Shown one piece after another: positions 2,849 through 15,497 of a stretch of 16,567 bases of DNA. The stretch comes from Promethearchaeota archaeon (GTDB taxonomy: Archaea; Asgardarchaeota; Lokiarchaeia; Sigynarchaeales; SOKP01). The translations under genes were made by a program, and so were the position numbers. The stretch is from NCBI GenBank assembly GCA_016839905.1, contig JAEOTJ010000378.1, forward strand, positions 1-16,567. Direction: 5' to 3'. Position 1 is the first letter of the stretch. Every line of letters begins with the position of its first letter. The notes under the pieces were generated by a model. It was not told where the DNA came from. It worked only from the letters and a program-made list of their open reading frames with translations, and made no database searches.

Positions 2849-5194
2849 TTGGTGAGTTCTGTCTCAAGCAGAGAAGGTTTTCTAACCCATCCGTTAATAA
2901 AAGAAAGTTTAGTAGTGAGACGTGCGTATCAAGAAAATATCTTTATAAATTGTTTAAATCAAAATTGTTTAGTAGTCATTCCAACAGGTTTAGGTAAAAC
3001 TATTATCGCACTCATGTTAGCAGTTCATAAACTTTCAGAAAAGCCAAATTCAAAAGTGATATTCTTGGCGCCGACGAAACCCTTAGTGAATCAGCACTAT
3101 AAATCTTTCTTAAATTTAACACTAATTACTCCTGAGTCTCTTAAATCGATTACGGGAACGACCCCTCCGGAAAAAAGAAAAGAACTTTGGAATGAAGTAA
3201 AAGTTGCTTTCATGACCCCTCAAGTACTACAAAATGATTTAATTTCAAATTTATATTCTATTCAAGATGTGTCTTTAATCATTTTTGATGAATGTCATCG
3301 AGCGATTGGTGATTATGCTTACTGTTTTATTGCTAAAAAGTATTTGGACGCTTCGGAGTCCCCTCAAATATTAGGTCTCACGGCAAGTCCTGGTTCTACT
3401 GAGGAAAAGATTAATGAAATTAAACAAAATTTATATATCGATCATATCGAAATCAGAACAGAAAAAGATAAAGATGTGAAACCTTACATTCATAATGTAG
3501 ATAATGAATGGATAAAAATTAAGCTTCCTAAAGAATTCTTAGAAATTACAAGTATTTTAATAGAAAAATTAAAGAGCATCTATAAATGGTTAAAGCACAA
3601 CGACTTAATCAATTCGGTTGATGTGAATAAAGTCACTAGAAAAGATCTATTGTATTTAAATAAGGTTATAAATAACAGAATTAAAAACTCTCGAGGTAAA
3701 AACGAGAAATTCGAAATGTTTTATGCAAAAAAGCTTCAAGCGAATGCAATACGACTATCTCACATGTTAGAATTAATAGAAACACAAGGTATTAACGCGT
3801 TAAACGATTACTTTGAAAAAAATGAAGAAAAGATAAAGGATAATACAGCCAATAAATCCTTAAAAGAATTATGGGCTGATGTAGATTTTAAACGCGTAAA
3901 AGAATTGACTCAAAACATTCAGTCAAAGAGAATAATCCATCCAAAAATAGAAAGATTACAAGATATTTTACATTCTCAATTAAAAAAAAGTTCTGAATCA
4001 AGAATATTAGTTTTTTGTCATTTTAGAGATTCTATTAATAATATTGTTAGATTCTTTCAAAAAGATAAGATAATAAAAGCTCATAAATTCGTGGGCCAAG
4101 CAAAAAGGGGGTCAGATAAAGGATTAAGACAAAAGGAACAGATTGAGCTACTTGAAGAATTTAAGGAAGGTAATTACAACACATTAATTGGAACGAGCGT
4201 TGCCGAAGAAGGTTTAGATATCGCAGAATGCGATTTAGTTGTTTTTTACGATGTAGTGCCAAGTGCTATCCGCTCCATTCAACGCCGAGGTCGCACGGGT
4301 CGGAAAAAAGAAGGTAAAGTCATTATTTTAATGGCCGAAGGCACGAGAGATGAAGGATATTACTGGGCAGAAAAAGTAAAGGAAAAGAACATGAAACAAA
4401 GTCTAAAAAGAATTAAGGAGTCAGAAAAGGATTCTAAATCAGGACAATCTAATCTATTAAGTTTCATTTCCAATGATAAAGAAGATAATGGATCAAAAGA
4501 GTCACCTAAAGATTTAAATAATTCAATTCAAAAAATTGAAGGTGCTGATGAATTAAAAATTGTTTGTGATAATCGAGAAACAGCATCTCCCGTGGTTAGG
4601 AATTTATCATTAATGGGGATTGATCTAAGGTTAGAACAATTAACAGTAGCTGATTATGTAATATCAAATCGAGTTGGGATTGAAAGAAAAAATGCCCAAG
4701 ATTTTAGCGATTCCATAAAGGATGGGAGATTATTTACAGAGTTAAACGATTTAAAAAATAATTTTGAAAGACCAATTCTAATACTAGAAGGTGATCCATT
4801 CACGGATTCCAGTATAAATGAAAATGCTTTATATGGTGCCATTACTTCAATTATTTTAAATTTAGGAATAAATGTTTATAAAACTAGAGATCCAAGTGAA
4901 ACAGCGATTTTTTTATACCAATTAACTAAAAAGGAACAATCAAAAAATAAAAGCTCAATTAAACTGAGATTTAATAAAGCACCAATAGATATGTCTCGTT
5001 TGCTAGAGTATATTATTGCGGGCATTCCTGGAGTCAACGCTTTACGAGCTAAATATCTTCTTAATGAATTAAAGACAATACAAACAATTTTTAATGCCGA
5101 TATACCAGATATGACAAAAATTGAGAATATAGGTAAAAAAATTGCGCAAGAAATTTATAAAATTAGTAGATATAAATATCAAAATGGTTCTTGA
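2849..5194 (+). CDS. hef: Hef-type SF2 helicase / XPF-family structure-specific nuclease
   Basis: This is a 781-residue archaeal relative of FANCM (helicase) and XPF/Mus81 (nuclease). Such proteins process stalled forks and branched DNA. The N-terminal SF2 helicase has a Q-like motif around RRAYQE (24-29), Walker A PTGLGKT (45-51), Walker B DECH (147-150), motif III TASPG (178-182) and motif VI QRRGRTGR (~478-485). An insert of roughly 150 residues lies between the RecA lobes, as in Hef. A charged linker leads to the ERCC4 nuclease, with DNRE near residue 573, ADYVIS, and the catalytic ERK (~611-614) followed by DFxxSIKDGRL. Tandem helix-hairpin-helix motifs end the protein (~717-770; GIPGV and ENIGKKIA). 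All catalytic motifs appear intact. The start is TTG 2849 or GTG 2852; there is no ATG before HPLIK. Minus-strand frames inside it are shadows. Confidence 0.95.
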   Translation: MVSSVSSREGFLTHPLIKESLVVRRAYQENIFINCLNQNCLVVIPTGLGKTIIALMLAVHKLSEKPNSKVIFLAPTKPLVNQHYKSFLNLTLITPESLKSITGTTPPEKRKELWNEVKVAFMTPQVLQNDLISNLYSIQDVSLIIFDECHRAIGDYAYCFIAKKYLDASESPQILGLTASPGSTEEKINEIKQNLYIDHIEIRTEKDKDVKPYIHNVDNEWIKIKLPKEFLEITSILIEKLKSIYKWLKHNDLINSVDVNKVTRKDLLYLNKVINNRIKNSRGKNEKFEMFYAKKLQANAIRLSHMLELIETQGINALNDYFEKNEEKIKDNTANKSLKELWADVDFKRVKELTQNIQSKRIIHPKIERLQDILHSQLKKSSESRILVFCHFRDSINNIVRFFQKDKIIKAHKFVGQAKRGSDKGLRQKEQIELLEEFKEGNYNTLIGTSVAEEGLDIAECDLVVFYDVVPSAIRSIQRRGRTGRKKEGKVIILMAEGTRDEGYYWAEKVKEKNMKQSLKRIKESEKDSKSGQSNLLSFISNDKEDNGSKESPKDLNNSIQKIEGADELKIVCDNRETASPVVRNLSLMGIDLRLEQLTVADYVISNRVGIERKNAQDFSDSIKDGRLFTELNDLKNNFERPILILEGDPFTDSSINENALYGAITSIILNLGINVYKTRDPSETAIFLYQLTKKEQSKNKSSIKLRFNKAPIDMSRLLEYIIAGIPGVNALRAKYLLNELKTIQTIFNADIPDMTKIENIGKKIAQEIYKISRYKYQNGS

Positions 5195-5730: not shown

Positions 5731-6324
5731 ATTATCAAATTCAAAATTGTCTTATGCGGAAGTAAAAATGTCGGAAAAACATCTTTAATTCGCCGGTATG
5801 CTACGGGTAAGTTTGATAAATCTACTTTATCCACTATTGGTGTGGATTTTGAAACTAAGAAAATTACTCTCGCTGATGGAACCGAGTTAATGCTAAATAT
5901 ATGGGACTTCGCTGGAGAGAAAAAGTTTCGCATGCTTTTTCCATCATATATATCTGGTGCTTCTGGAGCTTTTCTATTATATGATATAACAAATAAAGCA
6001 TCTTTTGAGGATATTCAAGAGTGGTTGGATGTTATATATTCAGTTACTTCTCCACCAAAAACAATTATTTTATTAGAATCAAAAGCAGATTTAGAAGATG
6101 AAAGACAGGTAACAAAAGAGGACGTATTAGAAAAGTTTAGTAAATATAAATTTCATGATGAGATACTAAGTACTTCAGCAAAGACAGGACAAAATGTCGA
6201 AGAAGCTTTTCATCTGTTAGGTAATGAGATTATAAAGAACTCCTTGAAGAAATGCCCAAACTGTGACAAGTTTTATCCTTTAGAATTGTTATTTTGTCAA
6301 TTTTGCGGAGCAAAAACGCGGTAA
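5731..6324 (+). CDS. Ras-like small GTPase with C-terminal zinc ribbon, apparent ATT start
   Basis: This is the third small GTPase of the window, about 197 residues. The P-loop GSKNVGKT lies upstream of the first GTG (5842), so starting there would remove the nucleotide-binding loop. Reading back in frame, IIKFKIVLCG aligns residue for residue with MLKFKIVLAG of the 180-791 protein, and the Met position is an ATT (5731-5733). The frame is closed by TGA at 5722-5724, with no ATG, GTG or TTG between. Other motifs are TIGVDF (switch I), WDFAGEKKF (G3, again Glu for catalytic Gln), SKAD (G4, in place of NKxD) and STSAKTG (G5). The C-terminal zinc ribbon is CPNC-x10-CQFC. Possible explanations are an AUU start, a base error, or a lost start codon in a recent pseudogene. 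The body of the gene looks intact. Confidence 0.8.
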   Translation: MIKFKIVLCGSKNVGKTSLIRRYATGKFDKSTLSTIGVDFETKKITLADGTELMLNIWDFAGEKKFRMLFPSYISGASGAFLLYDITNKASFEDIQEWLDVIYSVTSPPKTIILLESKADLEDERQVTKEDVLEKFSKYKFHDEILSTSAKTGQNVEEAFHLLGNEIIKNSLKKCPNCDKFYPLELLFCQFCGAKTR

Positions 6325-7540: not shown

Positions 7541-8048
7541 AAAAAACGACAGTGAAAAAGCTGAAATAGAAAAAAGCTATGCTCAATTTGAAAAGTTGGT
7601 TAAAATAAGCCTGATTATAGGTATTATTACTATTTCTGGTTTCATAATATATTATCTTTTAACGCCTGAACCGGGATATGTAACGTTTGGAATTTTAAAT
7701 TCGGAAAAGAAATCAGAGAATTATCCAACCAATACATCAATAGGTCAAACCATTGAATTCTATGCAACCGTTGAAAATCATTTAGGACGTGATTTTGATT
7801 TCAAGATCAAAATCTACAAGGGCAACAATCATACTATTTTAAGTTCAAAAGGATCTAATGCGACCGTCAATTATACATCAAAGAAGTATAATCTAAAAAA
7901 TAATCAAGGATGGGATCGTAAATATTCAATGAAATTTTTTCAAGTAGGTTCTAATCAACTCATAATAGTGGAACTATGGCAGGTAATTGATGAAAAAGAT
8001 GAGTTTTATGATATATTATGGTTACGATTAAACATTACTACCTCCTAG
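7530..8048 (+). CDS. single-pass membrane protein with DUF1616-like extracytoplasmic domain
   Basis: This is a 172-residue protein. A charged cytoplasmic N terminus (~24 residues) precedes one hydrophobic segment (about 25-45), then an extracytoplasmic beta-rich domain. That domain (PGYVTFGILNSE...YPTNTSIGQTIEFYATVENH) resembles the DUF1616 pattern of 'YPTN-x-T-x-G' followed by a description of an Ig-like fold. Several N-x-S/T sequons (NTS, NAT, NYT, NIT) could be N-glycosylated. The ATG at 7530 overlaps the epimerase stop by 11 bp; an in-frame TTG at 7512 is a less likely start. Overlap with a nucleotide-sugar enzyme suggests a shared role in surface glycan or envelope biology (inference). 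Its TAG stop shares the CTAG with the stop of the convergent tldE gene. Confidence 0.75.
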   Translation: MKVKKNDSEKAEIEKSYAQFEKLVKISLIIGIITISGFIIYYLLTPEPGYVTFGILNSEKKSENYPTNTSIGQTIEFYATVENHLGRDFDFKIKIYKGNNHTILSSKGSNATVNYTSKKYNLKNNQGWDRKYSMKFFQVGSNQLIIVELWQVIDEKDEFYDILWLRLNITTS

Positions 8049-9418
8049 TTTGCCGAACCAATAAAATTAACTTCTTTAATTCTGACATATGGTGCTTGAT
8101 AACCACCATATATTTTAAATTCTTGAGAGACAGCATCAATTTTCATGAATAGATCTAATAGATTTATACCAAACATGGTCTCATTAAGTGGTTCTTTAAT
8201 TTCGCCATTTTTAATGATATTTCCACAGAGTATCAATCCTGAAAAGTCGCCAGTTGAAATATTAGGCGAATCACCAGTATATTCAAGTAGTATACCTTCA
8301 TTTACTTCACTTATAATCTCATCTTTTGTAAAATTACCAGGTTTCATAATAAAATTTGTTGCATTAATTGAAGGAACTGAACCATACGATTTTCGGGAGG
8401 CATTTCCAGTACTTTCAATTCCTTCTTTTCCAGCAGTATAACTGTTATGCAATAAACCAGTTTTTAGAAATTTTCCTTTTTCAATAATTTTTTTATTTTT
8501 ACATGGAACTCCTTCGCCATCAAATATTGCAGAACCAGCAGCACCATTAATTAAAGCATTATCTTCGATATTTAGATGTTTTGAACCTATTATTTCGTCT
8601 CTTTTGTCTACTAAATAGCTTCTCTTATATTGGAAAGTTTCTCCATTAATTGCAGAAGCTATAGAACTTAAAATTAAGCTTATCGTACCATTTGGAGTTA
8701 AAATAAGAGGGGCTTTCATACTTTTAATTCTAATCCGATTTAGATTCATTTTTGCTTTCTTTAAAGCATTATTAGCAATCATTACAGCATCTAAATTTTT
8801 AATATCTCTTACTGTTTGCCAATCATTACCAGAAGATGTCTCTTTACTTATTTTATCTTTTACGATAATATTTGAAGATATGGCACAGATAGTATCTTTA
8901 CCATTAATTTCCATTCCATTAGAATTAAAGATATAACTTTTAGAATAATTTGATGAAAAATCAGCTGATTGGGATATTGCTAATTCATCTTCTTTACAAA
9001 CTTTAATTAAATCTTCTACATAATTCAAGGTATCCTCTATTTTTAAGTATTTTAATTCTTTATCAAAAAGACCTTTCACGCGGGGATAATTTTCATATTT
9101 TTCCGGCAAGTTTTTAAAATCAGGATCATTTGTTCCAGAATCCATCATTTTAAGGGCGATTTTAGTCATATTATCAATTGAATTTCTATTTAAGTTGTTT
9201 GTAAATGAAAAACCTAAAGCGCCTCTTTTATCAATAACCCTGATTGAAATACCCGAATCACTTCCCATTTCACTATTTTTAACTGAATTTTCTTCGATTT
9301 CAATATTTATATGGTTATTTTTATTAAAAAAGATCTCGGCACAGCTTAAATTTGTTTTTTTTTCCGCCAATTTTAATCCAAAATTTGCTAAACTGAACAC
9401 ATCTGTTTTTTCTGACAT
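8045..9418 (-). CDS. tldE: TldE/PmbA-family metalloprotease partner subunit
   Basis: This is a 457-residue member of the TldD/PmbA (TldE) family. In bacteria, TldE forms a heterodimer with TldD. That complex degrades unfolded or leader peptides, for example in maturation of modified peptides such as microcin B17. This copy lacks the zinc-binding HExxxH-type motif, as expected for the TldE partner. Family features include the N-terminal nucleation domain around EIFFNKNNHINIEIEEN, RVIDKRGALGFSFTNNL, APLILTPNGTISLILSSI in the centre, and a C-terminal stretch TGDFSGLILCGNIIKNGEIKEP. ATG at 9418 directly abuts the TAA of tldD (no intervening base), so the two are surely co-transcribed and made in equal amounts. 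The plus-strand frames inside it are shadows. The family call is strong; the physiological substrate is unknown. Confidence 0.92.
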   Translation of the reverse strand: MSEKTDVFSLANFGLKLAEKKTNLSCAEIFFNKNNHINIEIEENSVKNSEMGSDSGISIRVIDKRGALGFSFTNNLNRNSIDNMTKIALKMMDSGTNDPDFKNLPEKYENYPRVKGLFDKELKYLKIEDTLNYVEDLIKVCKEDELAISQSADFSSNYSKSYIFNSNGMEINGKDTICAISSNIIVKDKISKETSSGNDWQTVRDIKNLDAVMIANNALKKAKMNLNRIRIKSMKAPLILTPNGTISLILSSIASAINGETFQYKRSYLVDKRDEIIGSKHLNIEDNALINGAAGSAIFDGEGVPCKNKKIIEKGKFLKTGLLHNSYTAGKEGIESTGNASRKSYGSVPSINATNFIMKPGNFTKDEIISEVNEGILLEYTGDSPNISTGDFSGLILCGNIIKNGEIKEPLNETMFGINLLDLFMKIDAVSQEFKIYGGYQAPYVRIKEVNFIGSAN

Positions 9419-10861
9419 TTAATTCAATCCCCCCACTAACACATCATCAACTTTCATAAATGGCCCTCCATCACAAACGCGTACGCTCTGACCCCCCTTA
9501 CCACATATACCATCACTATGCCCAATATTTTTACCAATTGCAGTTATTTTATTGAGGGTTTCAAGCAACATCCCCGATAGAGAAACATCTCTCATCATTT
9601 CTTTTTTCTCTCCATTTTCAATTCTATATGAAATTTTTGTCTTGAATTGGAAGTTTCCTGTACTTGGGTCACAATATCCGTAATTAAATCCTTCACATAA
9701 AATACCTTCCTTTACATCCTCATACATTTCTTCTAGTGTCCAATCTTTTGGTTCTAAATATGTAAAGCCCATACGGACTTGTGGCCTGGAAGACGGTGAA
9801 GTTGCTCTACCATGACCATTGGGAGCAACAGTCATTCTGGATGCTGTTTCTAAGTTATGTAAATAGGTTTTTAAAATTCCATTTTCAATAATAGGTGTTC
9901 TTTGAGAGAGTACACCTTCATCATCCACGAAATAACTGCCATAGAGTTCAAAAGGTAAATTTAACTTTTTTCCTTGTCCCATTCTTGGATCATCAATAAT
10001 ATTAACATCTTCAATTCCTATTTTCTTGCCAATCATACCTTCTAAGACGCTTTCCTTATTAAGTACAAGATCAGCTTCGGAAGCATGTTGAGTTTCATGA
10101 ATTAGTACTCCCGTAAATTCCGGATCCATTATGACAGTAAACTTCCCTCCTACGGGAGATTTGGCATCTAAAAGTGCTAATGCCTCCTTGGCTGTTTTCA
10201 TGCTAAGATTTTTAGCGGTTTCTGTTTTATTAATTTCAAAACCTCCGATTCCTCCTACGGAATTTACAGCCCTTTGAATTATTCCATTTTTTTGGGCATA
10301 AACCAAATTATACATTCTTAAATATGATAAATCTTGATAAAGATAGCTTCCAAAAGAATTTAAAAATAAGCAATGATCCTTTTTATCCATATACAATGTT
10401 CGAGTATTTTTTATCTCTGGAGAGAATTCTGCTGCTATTTTTTCGTGTTGTTTAATGAGACTTATTTTCTCTTCAATGTCAACATCTACCAGATTTTCCT
10501 TACCAGTTGCTTTAAAATTCTTTATTAGGGGATCTCTTTCTCTTATTTTAAATTTATTTTTTCCTAATGACTCTGATAATTGAGCTAATTTTATAGCTCT
10601 TGAAAATTCATTAATAATTGCTTTTTTAGAGAGGTCTTTTAGAACAGTGAACCCCCAACCTCCATTTATAAAAGTTCTAATTCCGCAATCATTTACACTA
10701 AAGGAAGAGATTTCCTTGCTTTTTTGGTCAGTAAAATCTAAAGCAGTTCCCGTACTTACACTACATCTTATATCCCAGTACTCAATTTTATTTAAAGCAA
10801 GTTCATTTAATCCCCTTGTCAGGCCATCATCAATAAATTTTAAATCGTCAATAATTGCCAT
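9419..10861 (-). CDS. tldD: TldD-family zinc metalloprotease, catalytic subunit
   Basis: This is a 480-residue catalytic partner of the TldD/TldE complex. Recognisable stretches are MDPEFTGVLIHE (metal site at 255-259), SSSRPQVRMGFTYLEP, and the C-terminal GICGKGGQSV with Cys453, matching the third metal ligand region of TldD. The metal site reads HETQHASEAD, that is HExxH. Other TldD proteins I know have HExxxH (HEAxGHxxEAD), one residue longer. A near-leaderless promoter is suggested by ATATTTAAAA at 10889-10898, about 33 bp before the ATG. The gene is first in an operon with tldE. Possible roles are peptide degradation or maturation of a ribosomally made modified peptide; no precursor peptide gene was identified nearby. 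Confidence 0.92.
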   Translation of the reverse strand: MAIIDDLKFIDDGLTRGLNELALNKIEYWDIRCSVSTGTALDFTDQKSKEISSFSVNDCGIRTFINGGWGFTVLKDLSKKAIINEFSRAIKLAQLSESLGKNKFKIRERDPLIKNFKATGKENLVDVDIEEKISLIKQHEKIAAEFSPEIKNTRTLYMDKKDHCLFLNSFGSYLYQDLSYLRMYNLVYAQKNGIIQRAVNSVGGIGGFEINKTETAKNLSMKTAKEALALLDAKSPVGGKFTVIMDPEFTGVLIHETQHASEADLVLNKESVLEGMIGKKIGIEDVNIIDDPRMGQGKKLNLPFELYGSYFVDDEGVLSQRTPIIENGILKTYLHNLETASRMTVAPNGHGRATSPSSRPQVRMGFTYLEPKDWTLEEMYEDVKEGILCEGFNYGYCDPSTGNFQFKTKISYRIENGEKKEMMRDVSLSGMLLETLNKITAIGKNIGHSDGICGKGGQSVRVCDGGPFMKVDDVLVGGLN

Positions 10862-11047: not shown

Positions 11048-11986
11048 TTATGAGGATTTTTTTTTTGAAATTCTTGCTCTTAATTTATCAATTACATTTC
11101 TTAAATGTTGAAGTTCTTGTTCTAATCTAAATCTTTCTGCATCAAGAAGCTGTTTTTCAGTCTCCAAATTCCTGAGCCTTTTTTCCAGATGCCTTGTATA
11201 AGTTATTAAATACGGTCCATCTTTTATGTCTTTAACTTTTTTCCTTTCTGAATGTAATTTCTTAAAACTAATTAATGACGACTTATAGCTAATATCGATT
11301 CCATTATCCCGTAAATATATACCTAACTCTTTATTAATTATAGGAAGGTTATAATATTTTTGGTGGTACTCTAGAAAATCTTTATTTATAAATTCTGGGA
11401 GGTATTTCCTTTCAATTGTTAAAATTTCAATTCCTTTTTTATCCATTAATGAAATTATTTTATTTTTTATCTCTAATTTTTTCTTTAATACTCTTTGATC
11501 ATAAAATATATTGCGATGAGAAGGTAATTTTGGAGGTAATTTCGGTTTAGGTGGTAGAATTCTTAATTTCTTAAAATTAATTAATGACGACTTATAGCTA
11601 ATATCGATTCCATTATCCAGTAAATATAAACACAATTCTTTTTTAATTCTAGGAAGGTTATCACGTTTTTGATGGTACTCCAGAAAATCTTTATTTATAA
11701 ATTCTGCGAGGTATTTCCTTTCAATTGTTAAAATTTCAATTCCCTTTTCGTCCATTAATGAAATTATTTTATTTTTAATTTTATTTTTAATATTTCTTAA
11801 AAATCTCTCAAGTTTCAAGCCCTTTAGATCCTTCTGAACTTTTGTTAAAGATTTGGAAAAGTCTCTAATACCTCTTAAAGTATCTTTTATATCATCAACT
11901 AATGATTCCAAGTTCTCATCTATACGTGTTGGTTCTTCTGGTGTATCCTTCTTAAATTCGTCCTTCTCATCATTATTATGAGTCAT
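11048..11986 (-). CDS. hypothetical protein with duplicated helical domain and C-terminal coiled coil
   Basis: This is a 312-residue, strongly charged soluble protein of unrecognised family. An acidic N-terminal region (1-60) leads into repeat 1 (~70-141), a Pro/Lys linker (144-156), repeat 2 (~173-244), and a C-terminal coiled coil (~264-307). The repeats are about 84% identical by eye, with the copies offset by 103 residues. Each starts IKNKIISLMD and ends IDISYKSSLI, predicting mostly helices, possibly an HTH-like DNA-binding unit. The coiled coil has RxLExE...LxxE...LxxE...LR heptads. These recall the N-terminal coils of proteasome-activating ATPases, but there is no AAA domain here. ATG 11986 has a TATA-like box ~27 bp upstream and a GAGGG stretch 3 bp before it. 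Function unknown. Confidence 0.8.
   Translation of the reverse strand: MTHNNDEKDEFKKDTPEEPTRIDENLESLVDDIKDTLRGIRDFSKSLTKVQKDLKGLKLERFLRNIKNKIKNKIISLMDEKGIEILTIERKYLAEFINKDFLEYHQKRDNLPRIKKELCLYLLDNGIDISYKSSLINFKKLRILPPKPKLPPKLPSHRNIFYDQRVLKKKLEIKNKIISLMDKKGIEILTIERKYLPEFINKDFLEYHQKYYNLPIINKELGIYLRDNGIDISYKSSLISFKKLHSERKKVKDIKDGPYLITYTRHLEKRLRNLETEKQLLDAERFRLEQELQHLRNVIDKLRARISKKKSS
11255..11470 (-). repeat. internal tandem duplication, copy 2 (residues 173-244)
   Basis: This block is nearly the same at DNA level as 11564-11779, offset by 309 bp (103 codons), with differences scattered among third-position and a dozen amino-acid changes. The frame is kept. Confidence 0.9.
11564..11779 (-). repeat. 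internal tandem duplication, copy 1 (residues 70-141)
   Basis: This is the partner of 11255-11470. High identity at both DNA and protein level implies a fairly recent in-frame duplication or ongoing gene conversion within the gene. Confidence 0.9.
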
Positions 11987-12403: not shown

Positions 12404-12487
12404 ATGGAAAAAAGAGAAATTTCCACTACAAGTGATTTTAAAAAAGAAAAAAATCCCGATTCCAATTACCTAAATTTGAAATGGTGA
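12404..12487 (+). CDS. possible 27-residue leader peptide frame
   Basis: This is an ATG frame encoding MEKREISTTSDFKKEKNPDS and ending in TGA at 12485-12487. It overlaps the first ATG of the downstream gene and ends just before that gene's second ATG pair (12493, 12496). GGTGAT at 12484-12489 could act as a Shine-Dalgarno element for those. The peptide is hydrophilic with no recognisable motif. It could be a translated leader coupling to the main gene, or chance. Confidence 0.25.
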   Translation: MEKREISTTSDFKKEKNPDSNYLNLKW

Positions 12488-14229
12488 TTTTTATGATGGA
12501 TGATAATTTAAATCTGGAAAATGAAAATAGGAAAAGAATTATAACAGCTTGCATCGGCCAATGCGTTCATGTTGCAGGTATATATAATTTTTTTAATATT
12601 GCTAATCAGTTGGGTATTATATGTGATTTTTTAGGTCTAGCAACTCCTATACAAAAAATAATTAATGAAATCCAGAAAATTAATCCTGATATCGTTGGGC
12701 TTAGTTATCGTTTAACTCCTTCAACTGTTAAACCCTTACTTAAAGAATTCTTTGAAAAGTATGAAAAAATAGAAGAAAAACCTGAAAAATTATTCTTTGC
12801 AGGCACACCCGATGTTGTTGCTGTAGCGAAAAAGATTTATAAATTTGATGAATATTTTATAGGCGGTGAATCACGAGATAGAATAATTTCAATTTTAATA
12901 AATGATGATAAGTTAGGTAATAAAAAAATTAAAATTCCAATGGATTTGGTTTCTCGAATTAAATGGAAAAAACCATATCCAATAATAAGAGCACATTTTG
13001 GATTGTCAAGTCTTAAGGAAACAATTAGAGGTATAAAAAAATTAGCAAAAGCAGAAGTGTTGGATGTAATTTCCATTGCTCCAGATCAAAATACTCAAGC
13101 AAATTACTACCATCCCGAAGAGCAAAATTTAGAATCTGAAGGAGCTGGAGGTGTTCCTTTAAAATCGAGAGATGATTTTGAAATTTTACATCATTCAAGG
13201 CTAACAGGTAATCACCCGTTATTAAGAATTTATGCTGGAACTCGAGATTTCATTAAATTAGCGAAATTATATCGGGATACTATTCAAAATGCTTGGTCAG
13301 CGATTCCAATCTTTTGGTTTAATCAGATGGATGGAAGAGGTCCATTATCATTAAAAGAATCCATAAAACAGCATTTAAATGTGATAAAATGGCATGCAAA
13401 TAATAAAATACCAGTGGAAATAAATGATCCTCATCATTGGAGCTTAAGAGATGCTCCTGATGTTATTGCAGTTGCTGATATGTATCTATCTGGAATTATT
13501 GCTAAAGATTTAGGTGTAAACCATTTTATTGCTCAATACATGTTCAATACACCTCCAGGAAGTTCTCTAAACATGGATCTTGCCAAAATTTTAGCTAAGG
13601 ATGCATTACTTCAAACATTAGTTGATGATAATTTTTCAGTAATAAAACAAGTAAGAACCGGTTTAACCTGTTTCCCTTTAAATCTAGAGAAAGCTAAAGG
13701 ACAATTAGCTACTTCTACAATGATTCAATTAGCTATAAAACCAGATATTGTTCATGTGGTAAGTTATTCTGAAGCAAATCATACCGCCTATCCAGAGGAG
13801 ATTATAGAAAGTTGTAATATTGTAGAACAAGTTATTGATCAAAGTTATTCTAGTAATATCAATTATATCGATAACAGAGTAAAGGAACGAAGGGAAGAAT
13901 TAATAGAACAAGCAAAATGGATAGTTAATATCATTTCTCATCTAGCTAAGACATCTGTTGAACAAGAAAATCCCTGGTCTAACTATAAAGTACTGAATCG
14001 ATTAGTAAAATATGGTATTTTTGATGCGCCACATTTAAAAGGTAATCCATATGCTCTTGGAAAAATTCACACTAAGATTATTGATGGATGTTGTTATTCC
14101 TGGGACGTGTCTCACAATAGGAAATTAGATGAAATAGAGAGAATAAGAAATATAGTTATGAATTATTCAGATAAATTCCCGGAATTAAATAAAATAAAAA
14201 ATATTAAAGAAATGGTTATAGAAAAATGA
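12481..14229 (+). CDS. cobalamin-binding, TIM-barrel mutase-like protein (fused B12 domain)
   Basis: This is a 582-residue protein with an N-terminal B12-binding Rossmann domain. The family pattern is DxHxxG-(41)-SxL-(26-28)-GG. Here it reads CVHVAG (C28, H30, G33), exactly 41 residues, then S75 in SYRL, and later FAG. The lower axial His is kept, but Asp is replaced by Cys. The rest looks like the TIM barrel of a B12-dependent enzyme: IYAGTRDF, DGRGPLSL, EINDPHHW and VVSYSEANHTAYPEE. The best resemblance I can recall is methylaspartate (glutamate) mutase subunit E, weakly; amino-acid aminomutases or a methyltransferase are alternatives. Start ATG 12481, or ATG 12493/12496 behind GGTGAT. Its TGA overlaps the next ATG (ATGA), so it is translationally coupled to the opine dehydrogenase. 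B12 binding is well supported; the reaction is unknown. Confidence 0.88.
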   Translation: MVIFMMDDNLNLENENRKRIITACIGQCVHVAGIYNFFNIANQLGIICDFLGLATPIQKIINEIQKINPDIVGLSYRLTPSTVKPLLKEFFEKYEKIEEKPEKLFFAGTPDVVAVAKKIYKFDEYFIGGESRDRIISILINDDKLGNKKIKIPMDLVSRIKWKKPYPIIRAHFGLSSLKETIRGIKKLAKAEVLDVISIAPDQNTQANYYHPEEQNLESEGAGGVPLKSRDDFEILHHSRLTGNHPLLRIYAGTRDFIKLAKLYRDTIQNAWSAIPIFWFNQMDGRGPLSLKESIKQHLNVIKWHANNKIPVEINDPHHWSLRDAPDVIAVADMYLSGIIAKDLGVNHFIAQYMFNTPPGSSLNMDLAKILAKDALLQTLVDDNFSVIKQVRTGLTCFPLNLEKAKGQLATSTMIQLAIKPDIVHVVSYSEANHTAYPEEIIESCNIVEQVIDQSYSSNINYIDNRVKERREELIEQAKWIVNIISHLAKTSVEQENPWSNYKVLNRLVKYGIFDAPHLKGNPYALGKIHTKIIDGCCYSWDVSHNRKLDEIERIRNIVMNYSDKFPELNKIKNIKEMVIEK

Positions 14230-15497
14230 AATTTTGTGTGATTGGTGCAGGATCTGGAGGTCGGGCGTTCGCAGCTTATTTAGCATCCAAAGGATATTCA
14301 GTTTCACTTTATAATCGCTCTTATTCAAGAATTGTGGATATTAGAAAAGAGGGAGGAATTAATGCTTTTGGAGCTTTAGTAGGTTTTTATTCAATCGATT
14401 TAATTACGCAAAACCTAAAACTAGCTGTAAGTGATGCTGATATAATATTAGTAGTTACACCTGCTTCTGCACATAAGAGTATTGCTAAAAGTATTGCTCC
14501 TTTTTTAAGAGATGGACAAATAATAATATTAAATCCTGGTAGAACCTTTGGGGCTGTGGAGTTTCATCGAATAATAGTAAAGAAAAGAGGTTTCCTTTCT
14601 ATTTTCATCGGGGAAACTCAAACTTTGCTTTTTACATGCAGAGCTTCGGATGATAATGGAGTAAATATATTAAAAATAAAGGATTCTGTAAATTTTTCAA
14701 CATTTCCTGATAAATACGTTTATGATACCTATAACATATTATTAGAAGTATTTCCGCAGCTTACTCCTATTGACAATTATCTCGAGGTAACCTTAAAAAA
14801 TATTGGTATGTTACTTCATCCCGCAATTTCTTTGTTTAATGCGGGAATGATGGATTACGGAAAGGCATTTAAATTCTATAATGAAGGAGCTACATCAAAA
14901 GTTTGCCAAATACTCGAAATGGTTGAATTAGAAATTAATAAAATTCTTAGTAAACTAGGTTTAAAGCAATTAAGATATCACAAATGGGCAAAAGAATCAT
15001 ATGGTATAGAGGCATCCTCAATCTATGAAGCGATTCAAAAGATCGAAGCTTATAAACCTGTAAATGCTCCTGATCAATTGATCACACGATATTTTACCGA
15101 AGATGTACCAACAGGGCTCGTCCCAATTTCCTCGTTAGGAGCTTTCCTTAATATACAAACACCTACTATAGAGTCAATTATTTATTTATCGGGTTTATTA
15201 TGTGGTACAGATTTCAAAAAGATTGGAAGAACTATTCAAGGATTAGATCTATATGATTATTTCATTAATCACTTGAAACGAATCCGGATAATAGAACGTG
15301 AGAAAGAGGGATTATTTAGTATTGAAAAAATTCTATCAAACCAAAATGAATTTAAAATCTGCTCTCATTGTGATCGTATAAATAATTATAAAAATGAATC
15401 TTGCTGGGTCTGTTACCTCAAAGATTTTAGAACATTAAATGAAAATGACTTGATAGAACTACACGAAGACAAGAAGAATGCTCTTATTCGAGCTTAA
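14226..15497 (+). CDS. opine (octopine/nopaline) dehydrogenase-family enzyme with C-terminal zinc ribbon
   Basis: This is a 423-residue NAD(P)-dependent dehydrogenase. The N-terminal Rossmann fold begins MKFCVIGAGSGGRAFAAYLA (GxGxxG at 7-12), with YNRS at the end of the second strand. It then has VVTPASAHKSIA and LNPGRTFGAVEF. The octopine-dehydrogenase domain is marked by NIGMLLHPAISLFNAG, with His198 as probable catalytic residue, and by RYFTEDVPTGLVPISSLG, a family hallmark. Opine dehydrogenases join or split an amino acid and a 2-oxo acid; relatives act on other amino-acid-like substrates. Unusually, ~45 further residues follow with CSHC (C379, C382), ten residues, then CWVC (C393, C396), the ribbon type seen on this window's GTPases. 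Its ATG overlaps the preceding stop by 4 bp, forming a two-gene operon with the cobalamin-binding protein and implying consecutive reactions. Substrate unknown. Confidence 0.88.
   Translation: MKFCVIGAGSGGRAFAAYLASKGYSVSLYNRSYSRIVDIRKEGGINAFGALVGFYSIDLITQNLKLAVSDADIILVVTPASAHKSIAKSIAPFLRDGQIIILNPGRTFGAVEFHRIIVKKRGFLSIFIGETQTLLFTCRASDDNGVNILKIKDSVNFSTFPDKYVYDTYNILLEVFPQLTPIDNYLEVTLKNIGMLLHPAISLFNAGMMDYGKAFKFYNEGATSKVCQILEMVELEINKILSKLGLKQLRYHKWAKESYGIEASSIYEAIQKIEAYKPVNAPDQLITRYFTEDVPTGLVPISSLGAFLNIQTPTIESIIYLSGLLCGTDFKKIGRTIQGLDLYDYFINHLKRIRIIEREKEGLFSIEKILSNQNEFKICSHCDRINNYKNESCWVCYLKDFRTLNENDLIELHEDKKNALIRA

Follow-up and report, generated by a model that had tools for sequence, protein, structure and literature searches.

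The 16,567-nucleotide contig JAEOTJ010000378.1 of a Promethearchaeota archaeon, analyzed here at full length and referred to as the window, carries as its last two large genes MUT, encoding a single-chain B12 mutase-like protein, and ODH, encoding an opine dehydrogenase (Table 1). An original prediction, made from the DNA letters alone, had pointed out two open reading frames (ORFs) joined by an ATGA overlap, the first with a CxHxxG-41-S spacing and barrel-like sequence, and had proposed a B12 pathway using an opine-type enzyme. Both ORFs are present and overlap by 4 bases, and the spacing is as described, with C28-V-H30-V-A-G33 separated from S75 by 41 residues. A pathway of this kind is plausible: MUT is probably an adenosylcobalamin (AdoCbl) mutase that shares a pathway with the opine-type dehydrogenase, both forming a two-enzyme metabolic module.

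Table 1. Positions of the MUT-ODH pair and of its domains and motifs in the window.
Feature	Positions	Strand	Support
MUT, single-chain B12 mutase-like protein, 582 residues	12481..14229	+	
N-terminal B12-binding (Rossmann) domain of MUT, residues ~19-140	12535..12900	+	PF02310 residues 19-81; PDB profile matches
C28-x-H30-x-x-G33, lower-ligand motif, Cys replacing Asp	12562..12579	+	
S75-Y76-R77-L78, place of SxL motif	12703..12714	+	R77, L78 invariant
TIM-barrel mutase domain of MUT, residues 151-557	12931..14151	+	VIA-align
R170-x-H172, strand 1; GlmE R66 aligns with H172	12988..12996	+	hhalign
R249-x-Y251; GlmE R149 aligns with Y251	13225..13233	+	hhalign
D284-G-R286; GlmE E171 aligns with D284	13330..13338	+	hhalign
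E431, aligned with GlmE Glu330 (adenosyl/homolysis glutamate)	13771..13773	+	
ATGA overlap, 4 bases, coupling MUT and ODH	14226..14229	+	
ODH, CENDH-like opine dehydrogenase, 423 residues	14226..15497	+	PF02317 7e-38; 1bg6 E 1.4e-77
ODH H198, aligned with His202 of 1bg6	14817..14819	+	
CxxC-x10-CxxC zinc-ribbon-like C-terminal tail of ODH	15360..15413	+	

The Rossmann domain with a histidine lower ligand that is expected of an AdoCbl mutase is found at the N-terminus of MUT. The B12-binding family PF02310 covers residues 19-81 of the window protein (E 2.6e-6) with 27.7 bits, under the gathering score of 32.1, and matches all of 35 diverse MUT members (E <= 1e-3), while a profile of the domain reports hits with corrinoid proteins, OraE, and GlmS in the PDB. 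The protein searches scored the 8000 candidates with the most words in common, of which 120 were listed; across the window MUT and its 119 closest homologs listed, each of C28, H30, and G33 is kept in 118 of the 120 sequences and gapped in the other two, which is more than chance would give. In a wider set of 123 diverse MUT proteins, to which the residue counts of MUT given below refer, H30 and G33 are each found in 122; at position 28, 116 members have Cys, five have Asp, as in the canonical DxHxxG motif, and two have a gap. The Asp-to-Cys change that the original prediction counted as a novelty is indeed carried by the window MUT, but it is a trait of the family, within which both residues occur. 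R77 and L78 are invariant (123/123) and S75 is kept in 116 members; we take S75-Y76-R77 to be the SxL site, with Arg in the place of Leu in 123/123. The missing small mutase subunit, also deemed new, is simply explained: no separate GlmS-type subunit exists because the B12 domain is fused within the MUT ORF. The domain also resembles corrinoid methyltransferase proteins, many of the listed homologs bear the name methionine synthase, and a weak metH match is returned (E 0.003), all of which would suit a corrinoid methyltransferase. This assignment is nevertheless highly improbable, since methionine synthase is a public label only, the metH match, at 15.2 bits, falls far short of the 1010.85 cut-off, and Pfam reports no cap domain; for MUT homologs the label is misleading.

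The barrel-like sequence of the original prediction corresponds to a B12-mutase barrel and not to a non-B12 fold. MUT residues 151..557 superimpose on residues 43..439 of 1cb7_B with a root-mean-square deviation of 3.0 (374 aligned; VIA-align), and GlmE is the top structural match of this mutase-type TIM barrel. The methylaspartate mutase E family PF06368 matches residues 168-493 of the window protein just above the cut-off (E 9.2e-7), as well as 19 of the 35 diverse members. R170, R249, Y251, D284, R286, and E431 are strictly conserved (123/123 each), and H172 is present in 122. E431 occupies the place of the homolysis glutamate Glu330, though this alignment is weak in probability; the role of Glu330/370/338 is treated in the part of PMC4413051 available to us. 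The three residues of the arginine claw of GlmE, R66/R100/R149 (the claw is named in the accessible part of PMC9545868), align, again weakly, with His172/Gln206/Tyr251, each conserved in at least 122/123, so the claw is absent at the aligned positions. The amine-binding E171 of GlmE aligns with D284, a conservative change within the same weak alignment. MUT shares with glutamate (methylaspartate) mutase GlmE/GlmS, which works with GlmL, the B12 domain, the fold of the TIM barrel, and the E330/E431 position, but differs from it by its single chain, by the usual Cys for Asp in DxHxxG, by the lack of the claw, and by nearly always adjoining ODH. MUT might itself be a single-chain glutamate mutase making 3-methylaspartate, on which ODH would act or to which it would couple a keto acid, as the structural match, the Asp at the place of E171, and the GlmL genes described below would allow. 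However, the replacement of all three claw arginines by conserved residues speaks against it, and one of 18 MUT-carrying genomes encodes a true GlmE (778 bits) besides, which marks MUT as a distinct family and makes this identity improbable.

Regarding the aminomutases, the original prediction had drawn a mechanistic kinship of MUT to the ornithine and lysine enzymes, which is not supported, the best structural match being GlmE. The lysine of OraE that binds pyridoxal phosphate (PLP), taken at its presumed position, aligns with Ala41 of MUT, invariant in alignment A2. MUT thus differs from D-ornithine 4,5-aminomutase (OraE) and lysine 5,6-aminomutase (KamD) in the absence of the PLP lysine and in its partner dehydrogenase, which is opine-type, and a PLP aminomutase was rejected. 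A coenzyme A (CoA) mutase was also discarded, because its Z is lower and none of the Pfam matches is to a CoA-mutase domain. The viral fold library gave no convincing match.

As in glutamate mutase, GlmL is linked to some MUT members, being near or fused to MUT in seven loci in all (loci and genomes are cited by our L and G numbers). Divergent MUT proteins are fused to MutL in L091 (1214 residues, MutL E 4.9e-81) and L092 (1233 residues, 7.5e-82), each adjoining ODH, and in L093 of G160 (E 1.2e-86), whose contig holds nothing else of size. Stand-alone GlmL/MutL genes form part of the operon in L094, L121, and L130, the L094 copy exceeding the equivalog cut-off of 475 with 606.6 bits; in G023 such a gene adjoins MUT. 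This fusion and linkage point independently to AdoCbl chemistry. Most bearers lack MutL, which is thus not required; none of the ten other window proteins scanned is a GlmL.

ODH comprises an NAD domain and the helical domain PF02317, as expected of an opine dehydrogenase, and its closest solved relative is 1bg6, the N-(1-D-carboxylethyl)-L-norvaline dehydrogenase; octopine dehydrogenase (3c7a) belongs to the same family. Among 12 ODHs, H198 and R288 are invariant and D293, aligned with Asp297 of 1bg6, is conserved in at least 90%. The active-site His/Arg/Asp set of the family is kept, and we take H198 and D293 to be the catalytic pair and R288 the keto-acid arginine. The window ODH is likely to be a working NAD(P)-dependent opine-type enzyme. 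It differs from 1bg6 and 3c7a by its coupling to a B12 mutase and, in the window copy, by the CxxC tail. The tail pattern is found in four of 118 ODHs, the window and L010, L015, and L024, the last three labelled Lokiarchaeota, and by pattern in none of the other 114.

The MUT-ODH pair is real and widespread across anaerobic archaea and bacteria. Among the named-genome loci, the best 80 of 111 confirmed, ODH adjoins MUT in 77 (76 by ORF clustering and L059 by tblastn), and in the remaining three (L021, L025, and L027) MUT lies at a contig end. With adjacency and overlap counted from longest-ORF starts, the two genes overlap in 58 of 77 measured pairs, window included, and share a strand in 76 of 77, the exception being L032. 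In the GC-rich loci L059, L122, and L124, which stand outside the 123-locus counts, the mutase and ODH were missed by ORF calling and recovered adjacent by tblastn. Two genome samples drawn from larger groups give the same picture. In 195 genomes of the Asgard phylum, that of G001, the genome of Loki locus L003, ODH is found in 80, MUT in 75, and both in 73, adjacent in 69 of these; in 249 genomes of the phylum of Tepidanaerobacter (G006), ODH is found in 71, MUT in 50, and both in 49, adjacent in 48. MUT without ODH is rare (two Asgard-phylum genomes and one G006-phylum genome). The order of the genes varies among lineages while adjacency stays, the 69 adjacent Asgard-phylum pairs being 44 ODH-first and 25 MUT-first. 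The tree distances of MUT and ODH over 114 loci correlate with r = 0.86, a value that includes shared species history, the top of 500 permutations being 0.12. The contig is Asgard-like: the closest of the named MUT loci carry Lokiarchaeota/Lokiarchaeia labels, the named homologs among the matches listed belong to Promethearchaeota and other Asgard groups, and Ras-like GTPases are encoded in the window. Beyond these, the pair is seen in other archaea, Tissierellia, Anaerolineae, Armatimonadetes, Thermoanaerobacter (L034 and L047), and Thermoanaerobacterium saccharolyticum (L031), many named bearers being Tissierellia and other Clostridia. Its co-occurrence, on which the original prediction had staked its proposal, extends across phyla. 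A plasmid search for the mutase returned no match. The mutases of L037 and L043, from metagenome-assembled genomes labelled Thermococci and Methanomicrobia, are near-identical (tree distance 0.08) and close to Theionarchaea copies, and one or both labels may be wrong.

Taking contiguous same-strand genes with gaps <150 bp, and unrelatedness judged by eye, the only neighbors recurring across lineages are AsnB-like genes, D-Ala-D-Ala-ligase (Ddl)-like genes, and GlmL. An AsnB-like gene is found near MUT in 14/123 loci, a raw count without formal background control: it is the next gene downstream in 10 and the second one in L037, and lies upstream on the opposite strand in L008, L011, and L017. 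Thermoanaerobacter wiegelii (L047) is among the bearers with such a neighbor. These neighbors belong to the asparagine synthetase B family but differ from it by the replacement, in 14/14, of the Thr-Thr preceding the Arg of an aligned AsnB loop, presumably the aspartate-binding one, and nine of the 14 lack Cys2. For L080 and L109, the two searched, beta-lactam synthetase is among the PDB relatives, asparagine synthetase being closer. Beta-lactam synthetase uses N2-(2-carboxyethyl)arginine. A Ddl-like ATP-grasp gene lies near MUT in 16 other loci, on the same strand in 13 and on the opposite strand in three; in six Loki loci it comes together with an upstream alanine/ornithine-racemase-like gene, which in L002 reaches 369.5 bits against ornithine racemase, under the 480 cut-off. 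The AsnB-like and Ddl-like ligases never occur in the same fetched stretch. These ligases are weak hints that the MUT/ODH product is amidated or ligated. The Ddl genes of L040 and L041 were set aside as partners, being on the opposite strand and probably housekeeping, as was the NAD synthase-like gene of Theionarchaea (L076/L077), the L076 copy being an ordinary nadE (311.4 bits, cut-off 255). In L037, a D-glutamate cyclase-like gene (PF14336, 6989-8071) is located between the mutase and the AsnB-like gene.

The ligases also bear on a bolder scheme, in which ODH would join an amino acid and pyruvate and MUT would convert the N-(1-carboxyethyl)- into the N-(2-carboxyethyl)-amino acid, through a glutamate-mutase-like fragmentation to acrylate and an amino-acid radical, the isomer being then cyclised or coupled by the AsnB-like or ATP-grasp ligase. 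It would explain the lasting gene pairing and the joining of amide synthetases, and it is consistent with the kinship of ODH to the enzyme making N-(1-carboxyethyl) amino acids, with the frequent loss of Cys2, and with the beta-lactam synthetase relatives. We know of no precedent for a 1,2-nitrogen shift without PLP stabilisation, which counts against it, as do the greater proximity of both searched AsnB-like neighbors to asparagine synthetase and the absence of a ligase at most loci. An acrylate/glycyl-radical route for GlmE appears in the available part of PMC9545868 and would lend the scheme some chemistry, but we regard the scheme as unlikely. Its extension, a new coenzyme-B12 reaction feeding an amide ligase, with an ancient metabolite common to Asgard archaea and anaerobic bacteria, is equally unlikely.

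In the reading that we prefer, MUT would be an AdoCbl-dependent radical mutase that belongs by fold to the glutamate-mutase class and unites barrel and cobalamin domain in a single polypeptide, binding cobalamin base-off through His30 and cleaving the Co-C bond with the aid of Glu431. Its substrate would be a small free amino or imino acid, not a CoA-bound one, held by the Arg/His/Tyr/Asp set, unlike the arginine claw of GlmE. ODH would form or break the C-N bond that links an amino group to an alpha-keto acid in an N-linked conjugate, and the metabolites handled by the two enzymes would directly follow one another. The product would in some lineages be used by a third enzyme that forms amides (AsnB-like or ATP-grasp), which favors biosynthesis. 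The domains, fold, residue alignment, pairing, and partner genes were computed; we infer the cofactor, the catalysis, the shared metabolite, and the direction.

Several observations weigh against this reading. Profile-profile comparison of MUT with GlmE yields low probabilities (4 and 21%; E 0.0095 and 0.001), hence the sequence similarity behind the residue equivalences is weak, with backing from the structural range. MutL (E <= 1e-20) occurs in only G023 and G160 of the 75 MUT-bearing Asgard-phylum genomes. ODH without MUT occurs in seven genomes of the Asgard phylum and 22 of the G006 phylum, some being fragments. An amide ligase is lacking in the vicinity of most loci; the third step would then be optional or encoded elsewhere, and the hint of product ligation is weak. 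Lastly, the Tissierellia pair lies near genes for 2-oxoacid:ferredoxin oxidoreductase, phosphotransacylase, and acid kinase (domains checked in L038), which would fit catabolism: MUT would isomerise an amino acid and ODH oxidatively cleave the product in an amino-acid fermentation, by analogy with ornithine and lysine. The abundance of Tissierellia and other Clostridia among named bearers and the racemase-like gene of the six Loki loci would agree with such a role, which is unlikely given that MUT has no PLP lysine, that a 491 bp gap separates the pair from the oxidoreductase genes in L038, and that GlmL and amide-forming ligases, but no degradative enzymes, are the operonic partners that recur from lineage to lineage. 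A further point against the preferred reading is an ODH relative without mutase in L140, flanked by an RpiR-type regulator on one side and a sodium/glutamate-symporter-family gene on the other; by eye, the mutase-less relatives of L141 and L142 are arranged likewise. This context hints at glutamate-like substrates.

Elsewhere, the window encodes three Ras-like small GTPases (180-791 and 945-1547 on the reverse strand, 5842-6324 on the forward strand), each with a double-CxxC C-terminal tail similar to that of ODH; in the third, the Ras match begins only at model position 35. A 312-residue ORF (11048-11986, reverse) without Pfam match contains two highly similar copies of a ~75-residue segment. 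The forward gene at 2849-5194 encodes a helicase, ERCC4 nuclease, and HhH protein, which we take to be Hef-like, and an adjacent TldD/TldE-type metallopeptidase pair occupies 8045-10861 on the reverse strand.

The operon itself is already known, with its role unexplained. The available part of PMC2626281 (2009) describes the putative operon Hore_09740/Hore_09750 of Halothermothrix orenii, made of an octopine dehydrogenase and a cobalamin-binding protein that distantly resembles methionine synthase, mentions it also in Thermoanaerobacter, calls it exclusive to thermophilic anaerobes, and gives no role. The present pair is likened to it by that description and not by sequence, and its range is wider. 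The novelty claimed by the original prediction is thus partly lost. Searches on the pair and its context found no later paper naming the pair among the matches listed, subscription journals being thinly covered. As far as these searches reach, the mutase class, the GlmL link, the Asgard/archaeal range, and the ligase partners are new. The known coenzyme-B12 rearrangements are few, and the substrate pocket differs from one to the next. The tie between a mutase family whose invariant pocket is a different one and an opine-type dehydrogenase, seen from Asgard archaea to Thermoanaerobacter, suggests a reaction and a metabolite still to be discovered, and the operon of 2009 becomes a directly testable question: which amino or imino acid triggers Co-C homolysis.

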